Below, piece by piece: positions 10,225 to 58,561 of a DNA stretch of 64,000 nucleotides (its first letter is position 1; every line of letters begins with the position of its first letter). The notes beneath the pieces were generated by a model. That model had not been told where the DNA came from. It was given only the letters and a program-made list of their open reading frames with translations, and made no database searches. The stretch spans positions 496,001-560,000 of the forward strand of contig JAJSSI010000012.1 in assembly GCA_031841125.1 (NCBI GenBank). Reading direction: 5' to 3'. The position numbers and the translations under genes are program-made. Origin of the DNA: Acanthococcus lagerstroemiae. Lineage: Eukaryota; Arthropoda; Insecta; Hemiptera; Eriococcidae.

Positions 10225-12502
10225 TTATTCCATTCTTAGACATCCAAGAAATACATCCTCACGCTCTCCTCTATCAGGGATAGGATTTTTGGGTATTTTA
10301 TTATTTTGGTTTGTTTTCTTTTTAGTAGAATATAATCGTTGTTTTTCAATCCTTTTCTTAGGATCTACGTGCAAAGAGTTCTGAGATTTTAGTGAAGGCA
10401 AAATTGAACTCCCTTCCAAAACAGATACACATTCCTTAGCTTGTAGTAGAAGTGACCAATATTTTTGACGACTTTTAGCAGATTTTAAAATTTTAAGGAT
10501 TTCTGTATGAAGTTCTGTTAGTTTATCATTTGTAGGGCCTTCTTGTATCGCTTCATGTAATACAAGTTGGTCCACAGTACATAATTTAGGTGATGACATA
10601 ACTTGGTTTGTTTCCAATAAATTTTCTTCAGTCACCGGGGGTTCATGGACTATATTATTTTCATATTTTATAATATGTTGACAAACTGAGTGTATATGTT
10701 TACACATGTTCCATTTAATAGCACTGTCAATACAAGTACAAATAAACAGATGTATGCAAGCATTACAATAATTACAAACCAATTTGCAATCACAATTGTC
10801 AATATTTCTAGTCACATAATACACCTTGTCATTCTGGGAAACAATACAATTTGTATCATTAACGGTTACGCTTATTTTATCACTTACTTTTTTATGACGT
10901 TTTCTCAATTCTCTCAACTTATAAGACACTTTGCCTTTGTTCTTCATAATGAAACGTTCAAATAACCGATCTCGCAAAAATTCAAAAAAGTAATGTAAGA
11001 ATTTATCTAGTCTGGTGCAACATTTAGCATCTAAATAGAAATATTTAATAGTTTTATGTATCCTCTCAAGACTCATATTGGTATTTATTTTACAATATGT
11101 TCGAAAACAATAAGCCCATAGTTTCATCTTTGGAACATAATACTCAGTAAAATATTCATAAAATGATTTTAGCTCATCATCATCAGCAAGATTTTTCAAA
11201 GTATTCTCAAGTAAGATATAAAATTTATTTTCATCCGTCTCCTCCAGTAGAGTCCGCAATTGTTTGTAGACATCATCACGCTTATCCTTATTATTCCTGA
11301 TTTTCTCCCTTAGATTATCTTTCCATTTTTCTACTACATGCCAAGTGCAAAACAGTCGTATAGTTGGAGGTCCATTAACAGCAACCCAAGCCTTATACAA
11401 TTCCTCTGCCATATCTGATATGAAAACATTTGGTGTAATTATTGTTTCAATCTTATTTTTAACAGTCATGAAAAAGAATGTTAATATTGTAGCATCCTTC
11501 CTGTCAGAAATCATAGAGGCTACAGGAAAACCCTGATGCATCTCATCTAAGATCATAATTGTGAATAAAGTAAAATCATATCCAGTACCGTGAGTTCCAT
11601 CAACACCAATAATATCACCACCAAATTCTTTCAGTATTTCAGCTTGAGCATTAGACATCAGGATTAGAGCAAAATTCTCCTTTTTTTAGAAATGATGTTT
11701 CAGAATCGATTGTATCCTGAGGTTTATAATATAAAACACTCGATTTATTCTCTTCAACTATTACATTTACACTCACTCCATCGTGTTTGTCTCTCTTATA
11801 GTCTTCTATCTTATAGAGACTCTGAATATTTGCGATATCTTTTAGGGTTATTAAATGGATACGACCTATATTGTCTCCAGTATACGAATCTCGAATATCA
11901 TTGAGTATGCTACGTTTTGGTATTTTTTGGGCCAACTTCCCTGCAATCTCTTTTTTCTTGGATGGAGAGATATTTATATGACAGAGTTCATTTTCATGCC
12001 CAACGTGAGTTTTTAGGAAACGAACTCGGATTTTATTTGCATCTGTTTCTTTATGAATATGGGTAGGACAAAATCCACCCATTTTTTTACTTCCCTGAGT
12101 TTTTAAGTTACGAATACCTTTACTCACTGTTTTAAATTCTCCAGATCGGTGACATACATACTTCATTGTCCTCCGCATAGACTGATGATGTTCGTTGACA
12201 TATTGACAAGTGGTAGCCTTTTCAATAGATTTCTTCCATTTTTTGAACGAATTCTCATCATCAAATTCCAAGTATTCATAACTGCGGAGGTCCCAAATTC
12301 CATGTTGATCAATATAATGGTCAATTATGGCTGGAGTGAGCACATCGATATGACATAGAGCACATTTTAACAGCACCTTCCTAGGATTAGTTATGGCATT
12401 TGGTAGATGGTGGTACTTCATCCAGTGATTTTGGAAATCACGTTTTCCAGAAAACAACTTCCCACAGTCATCACATACTATTTTTGGTCTGGTCAAAGAA
12501 TC
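10225..12502 (-). pseudogene. MULE transposase, main exon with frameshift
   Basis: An acceptor at 12503-12504 opens a long exon in phase with the finger exon upstream. The first part (to 11651) starts with a C2H2 finger (CDDCGKLFSGKRDFQNHW...H) followed by a FAR1/FLYWCH-like basic domain. The second part (11658 to 10225) has the MULE core with GVDGTHGTGY, FISDMAEE and WHVVEKW, then a SWIM-type finger (CTC...CKH). The two halves are in different frames, and the change maps to a run of seven T at 11681-11687 on the plus strand. This copy therefore probably cannot make a full transposase. Domain order and length otherwise fit a complete MULE. Confidence 0.85.
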
Positions 12503-47563: not shown

Positions 47564-48610
47564 TTAGGTATTGGAAAATAATGTTACGTGACGAAGATGT
47601 TGCCGCAAGTGTGACTGGAAACCTAGGAAATCCTGCGTGGCTTTCTTGCACTGCGTATATATTCGAAGTAGTAGATAATTTAACGCTATAAAATTCAGCA
47701 TTCTCATTTCATGGGACTCACCATTTGAGGTATCAAAAACGGGATGATTTAATTTCTGCAGTGTATTGGACATTATGAAATGTCGTCGAACATTTGCAAT
47801 TACACTTCGCCTAATATTTCTGGCCATGTTGGTACCTACTGACCGCTGATATAACTTCTCTGTTTCGGTTACAACATCCATAGCCAAGTTTGACACGAAT
47901 AGGAGCCCACCACGATTTTTGAGGTAAGTGAAAGCACTTACATCATATTTGCCAGTATATGTGTAGTCAAGTTGCAGATTATTGTTAAGTAAACAAGCTT
48001 CACATTCTGAGCACAAATATTTCTCGAAGTACTTCTTCACAATACTTCCTGCTACAAAATAGAGTGCATTATCTCGAAAATGAATCAAACTGATATTACC
48101 CTCATATGCAGATAAAAGTCCAATTTCTTTAGCATATATGTCGTCAATTCTCTCTTCCTCCGCAATACCCTTCTCATTATGAACATTGTTTTCATGAAGG
48201 CTGTTCACTCGTCCATTCTTATCACGCTGACAAGAAGTGCCAAAAGAAAATATTCCAAAATAATGCTCGCTTTCTTTATCATTCGCACAGTTCGAATTTT
48301 TAGTGGGTGTAATCGAATTCCGAAATAACATTTTTCTCAAAATCCAGGAGAGCTGCAAGGCGTGTGGATTGTTATTCTGTCCAGTACGACTACGGATACA
48401 TGAAAAGGTTAACTCTCCATGATCTTATGAAGTCTTGTACGCTAGAAAATACTCCAAAGGATGTTCCTTTTGTAATAGATCCAGTGCTAAGAGAGTAAAA
48501 CTGAATGTATTCAAATAAAATCCCAACGCGAAGGTTTTCCTTCTATGACTAAGCAACGGTATACCATCGCATTGCAAAGTTTTTATATAAGTGCGAACGT
48601 CTGAAAAAAA
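47564..48610 (-). pseudogene. P-element transposase C-terminal pseudogene
   Basis: From about 48610 the minus strand shows the catalytic C-terminal half of a P/THAP9-type transposase. Landmarks are RRKTFALGFYLN, then DHGELTFSCIRSRTGQNNNP, the known QDHLE(x)FS..RxRGGxNNNP block. An in-frame TAA stands where Gln is expected (about 48427). The frame then stays open to 47564 with FRDNALYFVAGSIVKKY, a Cys pair (CSECEACLL) and FTYLKNRGGLLFVS. No terminal repeats were identified. Confidence 0.8.
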
Positions 48611-53028: not shown

Positions 53029-53045
53029 TAACCGAGTACTGTAAC

Positions 53046-53077
53046 CTTCGACCATACATATTACATGGACTGCTAAT
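53046..53077. repeat. Left terminal inverted repeat of the P element
   Basis: Thirty-two bases matching the reverse complement of 58511-58542. The first fifteen differ from the short P element tip (38642) at only two positions (CTTCGACCATACATA against CTTTGACTATACATA), so the families are related. Confidence 0.92.
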
Positions 53078-53161
53078 ACTGATAAGAATTTGAAGCCAAA
53101 CATTGCAGTCGGCCACTTGTGAAAAAGCGTACCTTCATTTGGTATCTTTGATTTACGTTGG

Positions 53162-53185
53162 AACCTTCGACCATGGTCGAAGGTT
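53162..53185. promoter_or_regulatory. 24-bp perfect palindrome built from the TIR tip
   Basis: The sequence is a perfect palindrome centred on ACCATGGT whose halves contain CTTCGACCAT, the first ten bases of the element. It lies about 117 bases inside the left end, downstream of the gene. It may be a binding site for the element's DNA-binding domain or a relic of an aberrant self-insertion. Confidence 0.6.
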
Positions 53186-53836
53186 GGAACTGGGAAGAAA
53201 TTTTTAATTTTAAGTGAAGGTGAAAATTAATAACATTCTTAAAATAATTGCAATCGAATTTCGTCCGTTTTGTACTACATTAATAATTTATCCTTCATCT
53301 GAATTATAAGTACTCCTAATGTAGATTCTTGTGAAAATGTATTTTCCTCACTCAATGGGGACAAAGATGAATATTGATACTGGCAAGTACAAGATTCTTG
53401 AAGTAGCTGAGATTAATGAAGTACGACTGCACTGTAAGATTACAATACCTAAGTTATTACTGTATGAAGGACTGAAGGTAATATTACGTACTAATCAAGT
53501 TCCTTTCCGTTTCTCTGTAGGTTGAAGTTATCATCATCAATACTCTTAAGAGGAAAATACGCTACGTCTCTCAAGAATTTTCAGCATTATGGGTTTGCCT
53601 CGATATGAAGTACGTGCTATCTTAGTATGGCCGGTCAATCTATTAATGTACAATAGACCTACGTGTTGAAGTGATCTTGAATAATATAGGCAAGCTATTT
53701 TTCAAAGAGTTGTATTAGATACTTTTGTAGTTTCAGTTATTTTGCCTGCCTTCAAAGAATAGATATGTAAGTCGAAAGATGTATTTGTATTTCACACACA
53801 CTAAAAGAAAACAATAAGTACCGACATTAATTCGTT

Positions 53837-56800
53837 TTATTGGTGTAGAAAAATTGGTTGCTTCTTTGAAGAGTGTCTAATATCTTTCTCAACGGTCGAG
53901 ATTCTCTTGCAAGCATATCTGATTTTTAGTCGAATGTATAGCTGCATTATCAGGGTAACGGTGTGGGTATCCAATCGATGTGTAAAACCGCAATCTTCCA
54001 AGTGTTCGAGTATTTCCCATTCGACTTGCTCCATGTTCCTCGTGTTTGGGTGAAGAAGCTTTTCTTCGTTCATCCTGAATTGCTTCTCCACCTCAGAGCA
54101 CATTTCCACGATTATTTTCGCCGGGATCGTCAACTTTCCCCGATTCTTCAAATCAATCAGATCAGACGTATTTGTAGGATCTTTCAGTTTCATGATCTTT
54201 TCCAAAATAGCCATTTTTTTATCTTGAAGTTTCCTGACCAAGAACCCTGCCAAGTACGCGACGACATCCGCATCGTACTCCTCGTTTTTACTGAGGACTA
54301 TATTGTCAGAATTACCAATCTCGTCAAAGTCTCCATCAAAATCTTCGACGCGGACTGCGTCCAGTACGTCGTCACTGACAACTTCCGTGAATAGGCTACC
54401 GGCGCCACTCTTTCTTTTATTAATTGTTGAGGATACTGTAAGGATTTTGGTATCATCACTACTACAGTTGGAACCTGTAGATGTCCTTAATTCATGATGA
54501 ACAAGTAATCGCTTGAATGTTGATTTAAATTGTTCTGTGTTTGGGTTATTATTACAACCACCACGAGACCTTGCAGCCGAGAACCATGTCTCCAGATGGT
54601 CTTGACATAACTTATACGGCAGAAGGTATTTCAAACCGTAAGCTTGTAAGGACAGAAATAATGGAATTAAATTAGTCAACGAAACAATAAAGCCAAGGAA
54701 CCCGGTTTTCCTTCTGTGCTCAAGAGCCATTTTTCTTTCTCGCTTTTCCCAATGCAGGAATTTTCGTTCTTCGATATTGTCCTCCTTGATCTCCTCACCA
54801 TCATTTGCATCTGGCTCACCTCCGGTTTTCTTCTTGGCACGTTCCTTGGGAGGATTTTCAACTATTTTTAATCCGCGGATGTATTCCATCGCTTCGTCGC
54901 ACCATGCTTTACATTTAGGTAGGTTCTTCGAGCTGACTGGAACGTCATAAGCCACTTTTTTGGAAAATACACTTCGACAATTCAAGATGTCAAACATGTG
55001 ATCAAACTGAATACAATATTCGGCTGTGCCCTCACATGAAGCGAATTTTTCAAACCCTTTTTTCTTGGCATGTAGGAGGGCTGCTGCTACCGATGAACTG
55101 AGGGTTTGAGCTGCGAGTCTAACTCTCATTTTATTTTCTCGCCACTGTATGTGGCGCTTCGTCAGCCGAGGAGCACTATACAGTTCTCTTGTTTGATTCA
55201 AGTAGAACAATTCTTTGATATCTACAAATTTGATTCCTCTATTTTCCTTATCGACTAGAACATAATCACCGAGTGTATTCCGCACTAGTTTGAGGGCATG
55301 AGGTGGATCCAGGAAGAGGAACACTTTCTCGTCTTTATGACACGGACGCGGAAACCAAGGTCGGAAGTCGGGACCAAGTTCCAAATTCGCACCAAGTAGT
55401 TTGAAGCATGCTAAATTGGTAGATAAACCGTCGAATGTAACTGACCTAACAACTATATCCGCATCGTCTACAAGCTGTAGAGCCGTTTCCACTAAACGAC
55501 TCAGATTGTCTGCTTCTAAACTGTTCACCAGGAAGTAAGCAATTGGAAGCTTCCATTTGCCATTCAGGCAGACTAACATAAAGACCATCGCCTTTTTGGT
55601 AAGAGGTATTCTGTCAGAGTCGGAGTAACCAAAACCTAAATCTTCATAACCGTGATATTGTCCGTTTCGGTATGTTATTTCACTCCGAATGTCGATTTCG
55701 TCCATCATGAAACCGGCGATAATTCTAGTAGGAGAGTCCTTAGCTTTTGCCTTCAGTGCTGACAGCGCTTCCTGGCAAAATCCTGGTTCCCCATCAATTC
55801 GTGCATACCAGTTTCTAATAGTTGATGTGTGCGGCAACAGATACTGAAACTCCTCTCGAACATAATTATAGGATCGAGGGGAGTAAAAATGGAGCGTCAG
55901 CGCGAATTTCCGTAGTTCCTTACTGTATTTGGCCTTGGCAACCATTTTTTTGCGTATCACAAGTTGAAGTAATGTTTCTGGTAAATCATCCTGTGAAACA
56001 TGGAAATAAATCAATAGGATTCCGATAAATAAATCACCTTTTATTACATGATAAACTTCACAATTTCAGTGAACTTGAATATTCACCCACAGGGTGAGCA
56101 CAGATATTTCACCTTTTATAGGCTTCTTTGTAGGTAAGAAGGTGATTTTATTGGAGCTTATACTTGACATTTTGAAATATTAAAAAAAATTTAAATTATA
56201 GGTCACAGTTTGTCCCCACTCCACTTAAATATATACCCATCTAGGGTGAGCACAATACACCAGGTAGGTAGATTAAAACTTAGATTTAAGAGATATTTCA
56301 CTATTTGCAGGCTTCTTTGTAGGGAAGAAAGGGATTTTGTAGGCACGTATACTTGACATTTGAAATATTTATGAAAATCAAAATTGGAGAGAGGTACGTA
56401 CATGAAAACACAGATACTTTCGAGGATAAGTTTCAGGAACTCACGTTTAATGTACGAGCCACACCATCTGGAATCCGATATTCTTCCGGGCACTTCGAAC
56501 GCAAATGTTCAATCAGTTCTTTCATTGTTAGAACCTTCTCCCGCAGTCGACGATTGTCCTGTTGCAAACACCGAATCTTACGGACGCACTCGGCAACAGT
56601 TTCTTGACCGTATTTCAAGTTCAATCGAGCTCGGCGAGGAGACGCCATGTCAGGAGTACGTAATTTCATAAATGATGGTCGATCCCGGAGGTATGCTTTT
56701 AAAGATGGAGAACACGTCGAATCTGCATCTATACAAAGAATTTTACAATATTACTGTACACATCGCGCGCTAAACAGGCAAACGCAAATGAACAAAGTCA

Positions 56801-58315
56801 TTTCAAACATTTCGTATTCCTATATGAGAATTTATAACTTTGGAAACATTTCATGATCATCTTACACGATTGTGTTTTATCTTTTCTTTTATCTTGCCTT
56901 CCAATGCAGAACTCGTAAGCCGTTGACGGGGTTTCTGTTCCATTTTCTACTTCAGGAGATACTGTGCGCTGTAGCGTTGGCGTGGCCGGTAATAAATATT
57001 CGGGCTCATCTTGAGCATGCACTGTAGTAGGAACATGCCGTTCAACATCTAAGTTACAATGAAAGGAATACATTTTAACGACAGTTCTTTCAACTGAAGG
57101 TTTCCCAAGCCTTGCATGAAAAACTTCTCACTTTCTGAAGGAACATTCTGCTCCAAACGTTGTTTGCAAACAGTTTCATGTTTCTTACGATTCACTTTCC
57201 TTGTAAACTTTTTATCGCAATAAACGCAACCCTACAAGAGGAAGACAGAATACACCTCTGTTACACGAAAGCAATGAAAGTAATGGGTACAGCTATGGAC
57301 TGAGACTGAAATCTGCATACGTACAAATATTTGTTGATGTTGGGCATTAGCTGTTTTGTTTGTTACATGAGTTGCCATCTCGTTTTCGTGCATTTTCCAC
57401 TTATGTTTTCGACATCCTTCCTTAGAAACAAACGTTCTCGAGCAATGAGGACACTGAAACTTTGTATTCTGCTCTCCACGGAAAGAAAAATAGATAATTA
57501 TTATTTATGAAATACTGAGAAAGTATGTTACATTTAAATACAGTACGACACTTGGAGGCTCACTAGTCACCTTAATCACTACAAAGGAATGTTTTCTTCT
57601 TTTATGTCGCAGCAGGCCGGAAGCAACCGTAAATTTCCTTGAACATTTTTCGCACTTATGTACTTTCTGAAAAAGTTAGATAAAGTTAGTGTATGAATAT
57701 ATGCGGCTACACATTTCCGTAATATCCGGTATATCCCACAAATAAATTCGAATTCTTGAAAATCGATAGTGCAACTTCGACGTAGTGTAAAGTGTACATA
57801 GTAGGCATAAATACAACATAATTATTAGGTATTTAAGTTATTTATAAAAATAAAGAAATCGCATTTATGACTGAATAGGATACCGTTCACCATCTTCCTC
57901 AGTAGTCAGTAACCCTCCTCTTTTCAGTGAAGTTGACGTTCACTTGCCTCACAATGCAGGTTTCCGAGATTCAAAGTAGGATGGAAGTATGATTCAAGGA
58001 AAAATGATGAATCGGTTTTCAAAACTGTGAATTGTATCGTATTCAGCCTTCAAAATACTTCCATGTACCGTATTAACTTTTTTCTTATAACTGTACGAAC
58101 CTTAGGATTGCTTCCCACAAACTTGCAGCATTTCAGGTGTTGAATTAAGCGTTTTCTCGATTTCATTTGCTTAGCGCAAGAGGAACATTCCTGAATGAAT
58201 GAGAAAGGATGGAAAAGTATGAATAATTGAGTTCATTAATACTGTTACGGATAAGTCATATTATCACGTACGATCAAGTTTTAATACTTACAAATAATTC
58301 TTCAACAGCTTCCAT
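53837..58315 (-). CDS. P-type transposase with four N-terminal zinc fingers
   Basis: Eight exons fit, all phases consistent: 58292-58315, 58101-58190, 57571-57666, 57325-57468, 57132-57231, 56866-57048, 56445-56728 and 53837-55990; total about 1024 codons. Exons 2-5 each encode one finger: ECSSC…H..CC (C2HC), CEKC…H…H, CPHC…H…H and CVYC…H…C. Exon 6 is acidic. Exon 7 is a basic coiled coil (LQQDNRRLREKV). Exon 8 is the P/THAP9 catalytic body: GFMMDEIDIRSE (Asp about 404), LFLDPPHALKLVRN (Asp about 535), QDHLETWFSAARSRGGCNNNP (Glu about 774). No THAP domain is present and only 227 bases separate the ATG from the element end. Splicing is inferred. Confidence 0.88.
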
Positions 58316-58510
58316 TTATCCGAAGATTCACTATCCTGATATTAGAATTCCTTCTCGAATATACGAATAATCATACGATTTAATAATTATAATATTTCTA
58401 TTAATAATTATTCCCTTTGTAATAAATCAGAATAAATCCCGCTTTTATTCTTAATTCTTATCAGTGACATGAGAGGCAAGGTACGCTTTTTCACAAGTTG
58501 CCTCCTGACA

Positions 58511-58542
58511 ATTAGCAGTCCATGTAATATGTATGGTCGAAG
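58511..58542. repeat. Right terminal inverted repeat of the P element
   Basis: Thirty-two bases, inverted copy of 53046-53077, followed by the duplication ACTGTAAC. In gene sense this is the 5' end. The region 58316-58510 must hold the promoter. Confidence 0.92.
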
Positions 58543-58561
58543 ACTGTAACACGCTGTGTGA

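Follow-up and report, generated by a model that had tools for sequence, protein, structure and literature searches.

In the Drosophila P element transposase (PDB 6p5a/6pe2) and in THAP9, an N-terminal THAP domain precedes a coiled coil and a catalytic body, i.e. a helix-turn-helix (HTH) domain and a split RNase H domain, which contains a GTP-binding insertion and carries a D-D-E triad. The Drosophila element itself has short terminal inverted repeats (TIRs), 8-bp target-site duplications (TSDs) and subterminal repeats that lie at unequal distances from its two ends. The consulted sections of PMC1562414 name the THAP domain in a list of three features characteristic of P elements, and describe Anopheles P subfamilies with TIRs of 27–31 bp, 8-bp TSDs and THAP domains. 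Galileo, a member of the P superfamily with coiled coil and P-type body, is also reported with THAP domains but differs by its long TIRs, according to the consulted sections of PMC3688188, where 30–50 bp are quoted for the TIRs of P elements. Here we describe a transposon of the hemipteran Acanthococcus lagerstroemiae (Eriococcidae), which shares body, coiled coil and type of ends with these systems, whereas its transposase has no THAP domain and four zinc-finger exons are found at that place. It lies in a stretch of 64,000 nucleotides (GenBank assembly GCA_031841125.1, contig JAJSSI010000012.1, positions 496,001 to 560,000 of the forward strand), which is called the window and to which positions refer unless another contig or locus is given. 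Being P-like by body and descent and lacking the THAP domain, it is therefore a variant and not a canonical P element. We consider it very likely to be an autonomous, recently mobile cut-and-paste transposon of P descent, in which the THAP module has been lost and an array of single-finger exons stands instead.

The element, its gene and the encoded protein

The transposon is complete (53046–58542, 5,497 bp). Its 32-bp TIRs are complementary at 32/32 positions and the same 8-bp TSD stands on both sides, as an original prediction made from the sequence had claimed; the coordinates given there, 53837–58315, contain the exons of the gene but leave TIRs and TSDs outside. The predicted eight-exon gene, which lies on the minus strand, is likewise borne out, with all exons joining in phase to encode 1,024 amino acids (aa): a first exon of 8 aa and four exons of one finger apiece are followed by one exon each for linker and coiled coil and by a large one for the catalytic body. 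The stop codon of this last exon, TAA, sits inside an AATAAA string. The features are as follows:

53038–53045, no strand: target-site duplication, left copy, ACTGTAAC
53046–53077, plus strand: 32-bp TIR at the 3' end of the gene
53837–55990, minus strand: exon 8 with stop codon, encoding the P transposase body (HTH, both halves of RNase H, GTP-binding insertion and C-terminal part)
56445–56728, minus strand: exon 7, coiled-coil (dimerisation) region
56866–57048, minus strand: exon 6, linker
57132–57231, minus strand: exon 5, finger 4 (C2HC)
57325–57468, minus strand: exon 4, finger 3 (C2H2)
57571–57666, minus strand: exon 3, finger 2 (C2H2)
58101–58190, minus strand: exon 2, finger 1 (C2HC)
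58292–58315, minus strand: exon 1 (MEAVEELF)
58511–58542, minus strand: 32-bp TIR at the 5' end of the gene
58543–58550, no strand: target-site duplication, right copy, ACTGTAAC

With a simple weight matrix, which was drawn from general knowledge and not trained on A. lagerstroemiae, six of the seven splice donors rank within the top 31 of the element's 311 GT sites.

The N-terminal array had been described as four C2H2 fingers. Four one-finger exons are indeed present, but only fingers 2 and 3 are of the C2H2 type (C-x2-C-x12-H-x4-H), fingers 1 and 4 being C2HC (C-x2-C-x12-H-x3-C), i.e. the array is a mixed C2HC/C2H2 one. All four motifs fit the repeat C-x2-C-x12-H-x3,4-H/C of such proteins, with constraint indicated by the comparison of two families given below. 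In the profile search of the spliced protein that had been proposed as a check, the N-terminus exceeds the Pfam cut-offs for zf-C2H2_4 (30.3 vs 27) and zf-C2H2 (26.2 vs 25.2), and PF12017 also passes, covering residues 299–368 and thereby bridging the exon 7/8 junction. The element's three minus-strand frames, in which it was sought, contain no THAP match at E ≤ 1, and only 227 bases lie between the ATG and the element end, as had been counted before; a hidden THAP exon was rejected on these two grounds. Among the matches listed, resemblance to other P proteins mostly starts in or just before the coiled coil (around residue 230–263), and one match (P0004, 27% identity) extends from residue 177. 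The coiled coil, recognized by alignment, occupies the position between N-terminal domain and HTH: exon 7 aligns with the pre-body region of THAP-bearing P proteins.

The claim of a full P/THAP9 catalytic body holds. Exon 8 matches TNP-like_RNaseH_N (2.3e-40), TNP-like_GBD (1.9e-37), Tnp_P_element (5.6e-20) and TNP-like_RNaseH_C (4.7e-14), with PF12017, PF21787, PF21788 and PF21789 all above cut-off, and thus contains HTH, split RNase H and GTP-binding insertion. Among solved structures, the sole convincing sequence match is the Drosophila P element transposase (E 1.8e-22), the other two matches listed having E-values of 0.077 and 0.26. A structure model built from 33 sequences (mean predicted local distance difference test, pLDDT, 78.0) matches 6p5a with E 1.1e-20 and a TM-score of 0.82 by target length, at 20% identity in the structural alignment. 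In a hand-read alignment, D230, D303 and E531 of the Drosophila protein, which we take to be the numbering of its catalytic triad, stand opposite D, D and E, i.e. the triad is intact. Of eight GTP-contact residues listed in the consulted part of PMC7776569, six are identical (D528, V401, S409, F443, D444 and N447) and two lysines, K385 and K400, are replaced by R, again as read by hand; like other P elements, the window element may transpose in a GTP-dependent way.

Copies in the genome and a second family

The assembly searched comprises 658,055,089 bases in 438 contigs. The family of the window element has six copies, i.e. the window copy and five more on contigs C2 (two), C9, C10 and C6; the original prediction had suggested looking for further copies in related genomes. 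Allowing up to two mismatches, the TIR occurs at 11 sites in the genome, all inside these six copies, one TIR of the C9 copy being truncated at its end. No short non-autonomous derivatives (miniature inverted-repeat transposable elements) were found outside the six copies at this TIR threshold, more diverged ends not having been sought. Five of the six copies, all but the one with the truncated TIR, have identical 8-bp flanks, and these five TSDs differ from one another; with 32-bp TIRs, the family thus has the short TIRs and 8-bp TSDs of the P superfamily. Splice dinucleotides are intact in all six and the whole protein is encoded by five, the C10 copy having one stop. Between the TIRs, two of the copies, L041 and L042, are identical, whereas 9 sites and an 8-bp difference in length set the window copy apart from the majority. 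The 46 variants among the six copies, counted with gapped columns excluded, comprise 22 non-coding, 8 synonymous and 15 non-synonymous changes and one stop. The six copies are young, and their near identity suggests recent transposition of the element. A domesticated THAP9-like host gene, which would have no TIRs and no mobile copies, is ruled out by TIRs, TSDs and the six copies.

An upstream THAP exon in other full-length copies had been named as one observation that would refute the idea. None was seen in the other five copies, which differ little from the window copy when aligned, although a copy-by-copy THAP profile scan was not made; and none of the THAP matches listed lies on the same strand in the 6 kb upstream of any of the six copies.

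A second family, family 2, was recognized by related bodies at C217:18616 and C8:58803757, upstream of which lie five finger exons, a linker and a coiled-coil exon. The C217 copy encodes an open protein of 944 aa with the same phases and one extra finger exon; since the exons of its gene model were assigned manually, guided by pattern matches, and a further linker-like stretch was omitted, this length is provisional. Both families have phase 0 between finger exons, phase 1 around the linker and phase 0 before the body. Their finger exons are collinear, with 16/16 zinc ligands identical as against 23/70 of the other finger residues, and body identity amounts to 54% across 660 aligned residues. 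Over exons 1–5, changed sites amount to 0.44 for non-synonymous and 0.83 for synonymous positions; as the latter are saturated, constraint is indicated but no ratio is given. The ends of family 2, CTTCGACCATACACTACATAGACTGCTAGAAC, are related to the TIRs of the window family, and TSDs read from the flanks are GATATACC (C217) and CGAAATAT (C8, read without the stretch 58803901–58805199). Two further sites, C2:18049542 and C3:72890431, have an HTH score equal to that of the C8 copy. Fingers arisen by chance are ruled out by the retention of finger order, phases and all 16 ligands in family 2.

That a zinc-finger gene and a P element have come to stand side by side by misassembly or by chance might be suggested by the small size of the window contig C12 (722,615 bp). 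The same arrangement recurs, however, at different target sites on C2, C6, C9 and C10, of which C2, C6 and C9 are contigs of about 60–75 Mb, and the exon order is the same in family 2, so that such an artefact has a negligible probability.

Some side observations concern the element itself. In gene orientation, all six target sites start with GT (GTTACAGT, GTCTCTAC, GTTACGCT, GTGCGAGC, GTTTGGGT and GTTATCAG, the fourth read from one side only). This post hoc pattern, with an estimated chance of about 3e-6 (sixth power of the GT frequency times 7 positions times 16 dinucleotides), is absent from both family 2 target sites. The palindrome ACCTTCGACCATGGTCGAAGGT at 53163–53184, exact in five of the six copies, lies inside the element and joins two TIR tips in head-to-head orientation; it may be an additional site or have been left behind by a nested event. 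An 87-bp direct repeat (56102–56188 and 56291–56377, 78% identical) stands in the intron that separates exon 7 from exon 8.

Descent and a THAP-bearing sibling

When the whole assembly was searched for the P HTH domain, the scoring of 112 candidates yielded 81 matches, six of which belong to the window family. At least 29 of these 81 are preceded on the same strand by a listed THAP match no more than 6 kb away, a lower bound because only 150 of 366 THAP candidates were scored. A tree of bodies was calculated from 26 of the first 40 loci and 79 proteins, leaving out rows with fewer than 200 aligned residues and the divergent P0075–P0079. It has 97 rows and 468 columns and was obtained by a quick search with midpoint rooting and the Shimodaira–Hasegawa-like approximate likelihood ratio test (SH-aLRT) as sole support; loci were labelled as THAP-bearing by THAP matches listed within 6 kb upstream. 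The window family, family 2, the proteins P0001 and P0002 and locus L040 form one clade (SH-aLRT 100), which is nested in a clade of 20 rows (SH-aLRT 100) together with five rows from the same genome that have an upstream THAP match. In an earlier tree of 80 rows without the loci, the window body also groups with P0001 and P0002.

The other members of this clade say little about the N-terminus: P0001 (67%) and P0002 (63%) start inside the body exon, and in L040 (C4:28804371) the body is interrupted by a stop, other coding-like sequence lies upstream and one weak finger match occurs. Beetle and moth proteins are among the named relatives. Among 1,105 candidates, no annotated protein shares the finger N-terminus at 1e-6, and the viral contigs searched gave no match. 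A search with the coiled-coil exon found two short proteins, P0080 and P0081, and the finger lineage is therefore probably present outside this genome.

The finger form could be old and THAP gained elsewhere, rather than replaced here. This would fit the midpoint rooting of the trees and the many tree rows without a scorable N-terminus, i.e. open-frame proteins starting near the body exon, as well as the nine-row group nearest to the window body in the 80-row tree, in which no row has an annotated THAP domain; this last absence, however, says little because most of those proteins start near the body. By contrast, the 22 THAP-bearing rows are dispersed over the 97-body tree, in which the zinc-finger clade is a single nested group, and, according to the consulted sections of PMC1562414, every P transposase known at that time had THAP. 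We therefore regard an ancestral finger form as improbable; most likely, as far as the sequences tell, a P lineage replaced its N-terminal DNA-binding module.

The best evidence for such a replacement, at an exon boundary, comes from a sibling in the same genome (G000:C2:56346844-56351376). It is a complete P element with TSD TGACGAAA and TIR tip CTTAGACCATACAGTAA, and its body is 36% identical to that of the window element. In this sibling, which is known by its open frames, two THAP frames (1.7e-13 and 1.1e-6; L063:1155–1923) are followed by a coiled-coil frame with a shared RTP..A.PR motif and then by the body, so that THAP occupies the very slot that is held by the fingers in the window element. 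The two elements have in common the homologous coiled-coil frame, the TIR tip CTTNGACCATACA, the core TGATAAGAA and an 8-bp TSD, whereas the sibling differs by the two THAP frames in the finger slot and by a different large subterminal repeat. Taken together, the six copies, the collinear family 2, the nested tree and this sibling support the exchange of the DNA-binding module that had been proposed. As an observation in its own right, tandem THAP domains in a P transposase, as in this sibling, may themselves be unusual.

Within the literature searched, an exchange of THAP for fingers appears to be undescribed for P elements: no description of a P transposase with C2H2 fingers replacing THAP was recognized in the open-access literature as far as it was accessible, Repbase not being covered. 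Transposases of other superfamilies differ in their zinc-binding N-terminal domains. DUF4371 proteins, for instance, have THAP and other fingers at the N-terminus, according to the consulted part of PMC3985635. This kind of event is therefore not unheard of.

Elsewhere in the window, 47564–48424 (minus strand) contains a C-terminal fragment of another P-like transposase (PF21789, 2.5e-6), which among the fetched loci is closest to L025 (45%) and L022 (43%) and thus belongs to a different P lineage. Furthermore, open frames of 486 and 283 aa at 10225–12502 (minus strand) look, by eye, like C2H2-like fingers in front of a transposase of the Mutator-like element (MULE) type; L047:1994–2455 contains a finger frame of similar kind.

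Subterminal repeats, a possible mechanism and its meaning

Beyond the TIRs, the two ends of the element have two blocks in common, A (13 bp) and B (21 bp), whose order is reversed between the ends:

53078–53090, plus strand: block A, ACTGATAAGAATT, with the core TGATAAGAA common to the THAP-bearing sibling
53115–53135, plus strand: block B, ACTTGTGAAAAAGCGTACCTT, a candidate finger-binding site, starting at base 70 from this end
58453–58465, minus strand: block A at the other end, in reversed A/B order relative to the left end
58478–58498, minus strand: block B at the other end, starting at base 45 from this end

The longest subterminal match is thus 21, a match of 13 being reached in 0 of 2,000 base shuffles, and both blocks are present at both ends of all six copies. 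The THAP-bearing sibling has 12 of the 13 bases of the TIR tip and the block A core in common with the window family but a different large subterminal repeat, and family 2 has two other subterminal repeats. The original prediction had expected a new mode of TIR recognition. This is plausible, but since the tip is shared with a THAP-bearing element and the subterminal repeat differs most, it is better called a possible new subterminal recognition.

The THAP domain of the Drosophila transposase binds internal sites adjoining the TIRs, and the active site resides in the body (PMC7776569, consulted part). By analogy with these roles, the fingers would bind the subterminal repeats, which are lineage-specific, and the body would read the tip, which is conserved. 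Exons 1–8 would be spliced into one mRNA, and the fingers of the resulting transposase would tether it to subterminal repeats, i.e. block B in the window family and other blocks in family 2. The coiled coil may pair subunits, while the conserved body would recognize the conserved TIR tip and, with GTP and its D-D-E site, cut both ends, which would then be joined to the target with an 8-bp stagger.

Several points weigh against this overall interpretation. The link between fingers and block B comes by analogy, single finger exons are mostly below the Pfam cut-off, and the N-terminus is unreadable in most tree rows. Among the six copies there is no surplus of silent changes, i.e. no signal of selection within the family, so that constraint is seen only between families. 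Moreover, the joining of exons 1–8, and thus of fingers to body, is suggested at the DNA level, by phase, profile continuity and conservation, and the donor that closes exon 4 is weak (rank 77 of the 311 GT sites). These last two points would also suit a different product structure, in which the finger exons belong to a separate or alternative product, e.g. a repressor, whereas the transposase, starting at exon 7 or 8, would lack an N-terminal DNA-binding domain altogether; truncated repressor proteins are indeed made by Drosophila P elements, as stated in the consulted part of PMC7776569. However, phases are consistent over all introns in two families, the PF12017 match bridges exons 7 and 8 once spliced, and the finger slot is that of the sibling's THAP frames, which makes a separate finger product unlikely. 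Boundaries, in-phase gene, the order of fingers, coiled coil, HTH and RNase H/GTP-binding domain, the recent multiplication and the nesting among THAP-bearing P elements can be read from the sequence, and point to a mobile P-type element with a replaced N-terminus.

As to how the replacement came about, it seems an evenly balanced proposition that THAP gave way to a finger array once, at a modular exon boundary, and that the families then diverged in finger number and subterminal sites, with the TIR tip remaining under the conserved body. If true, the finger array would serve as a specificity cassette that can evolve, and the sibling with its two THAP frames shows that other cassettes occur in the same slot. 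Finger arrays are better understood than THAP as a DNA-reading module. Since one genome contains a THAP-less P lineage with near-identical copies as well as siblings that bear THAP, both the determinant of end recognition and the exchangeability of the N-terminal module in P transposases become testable.

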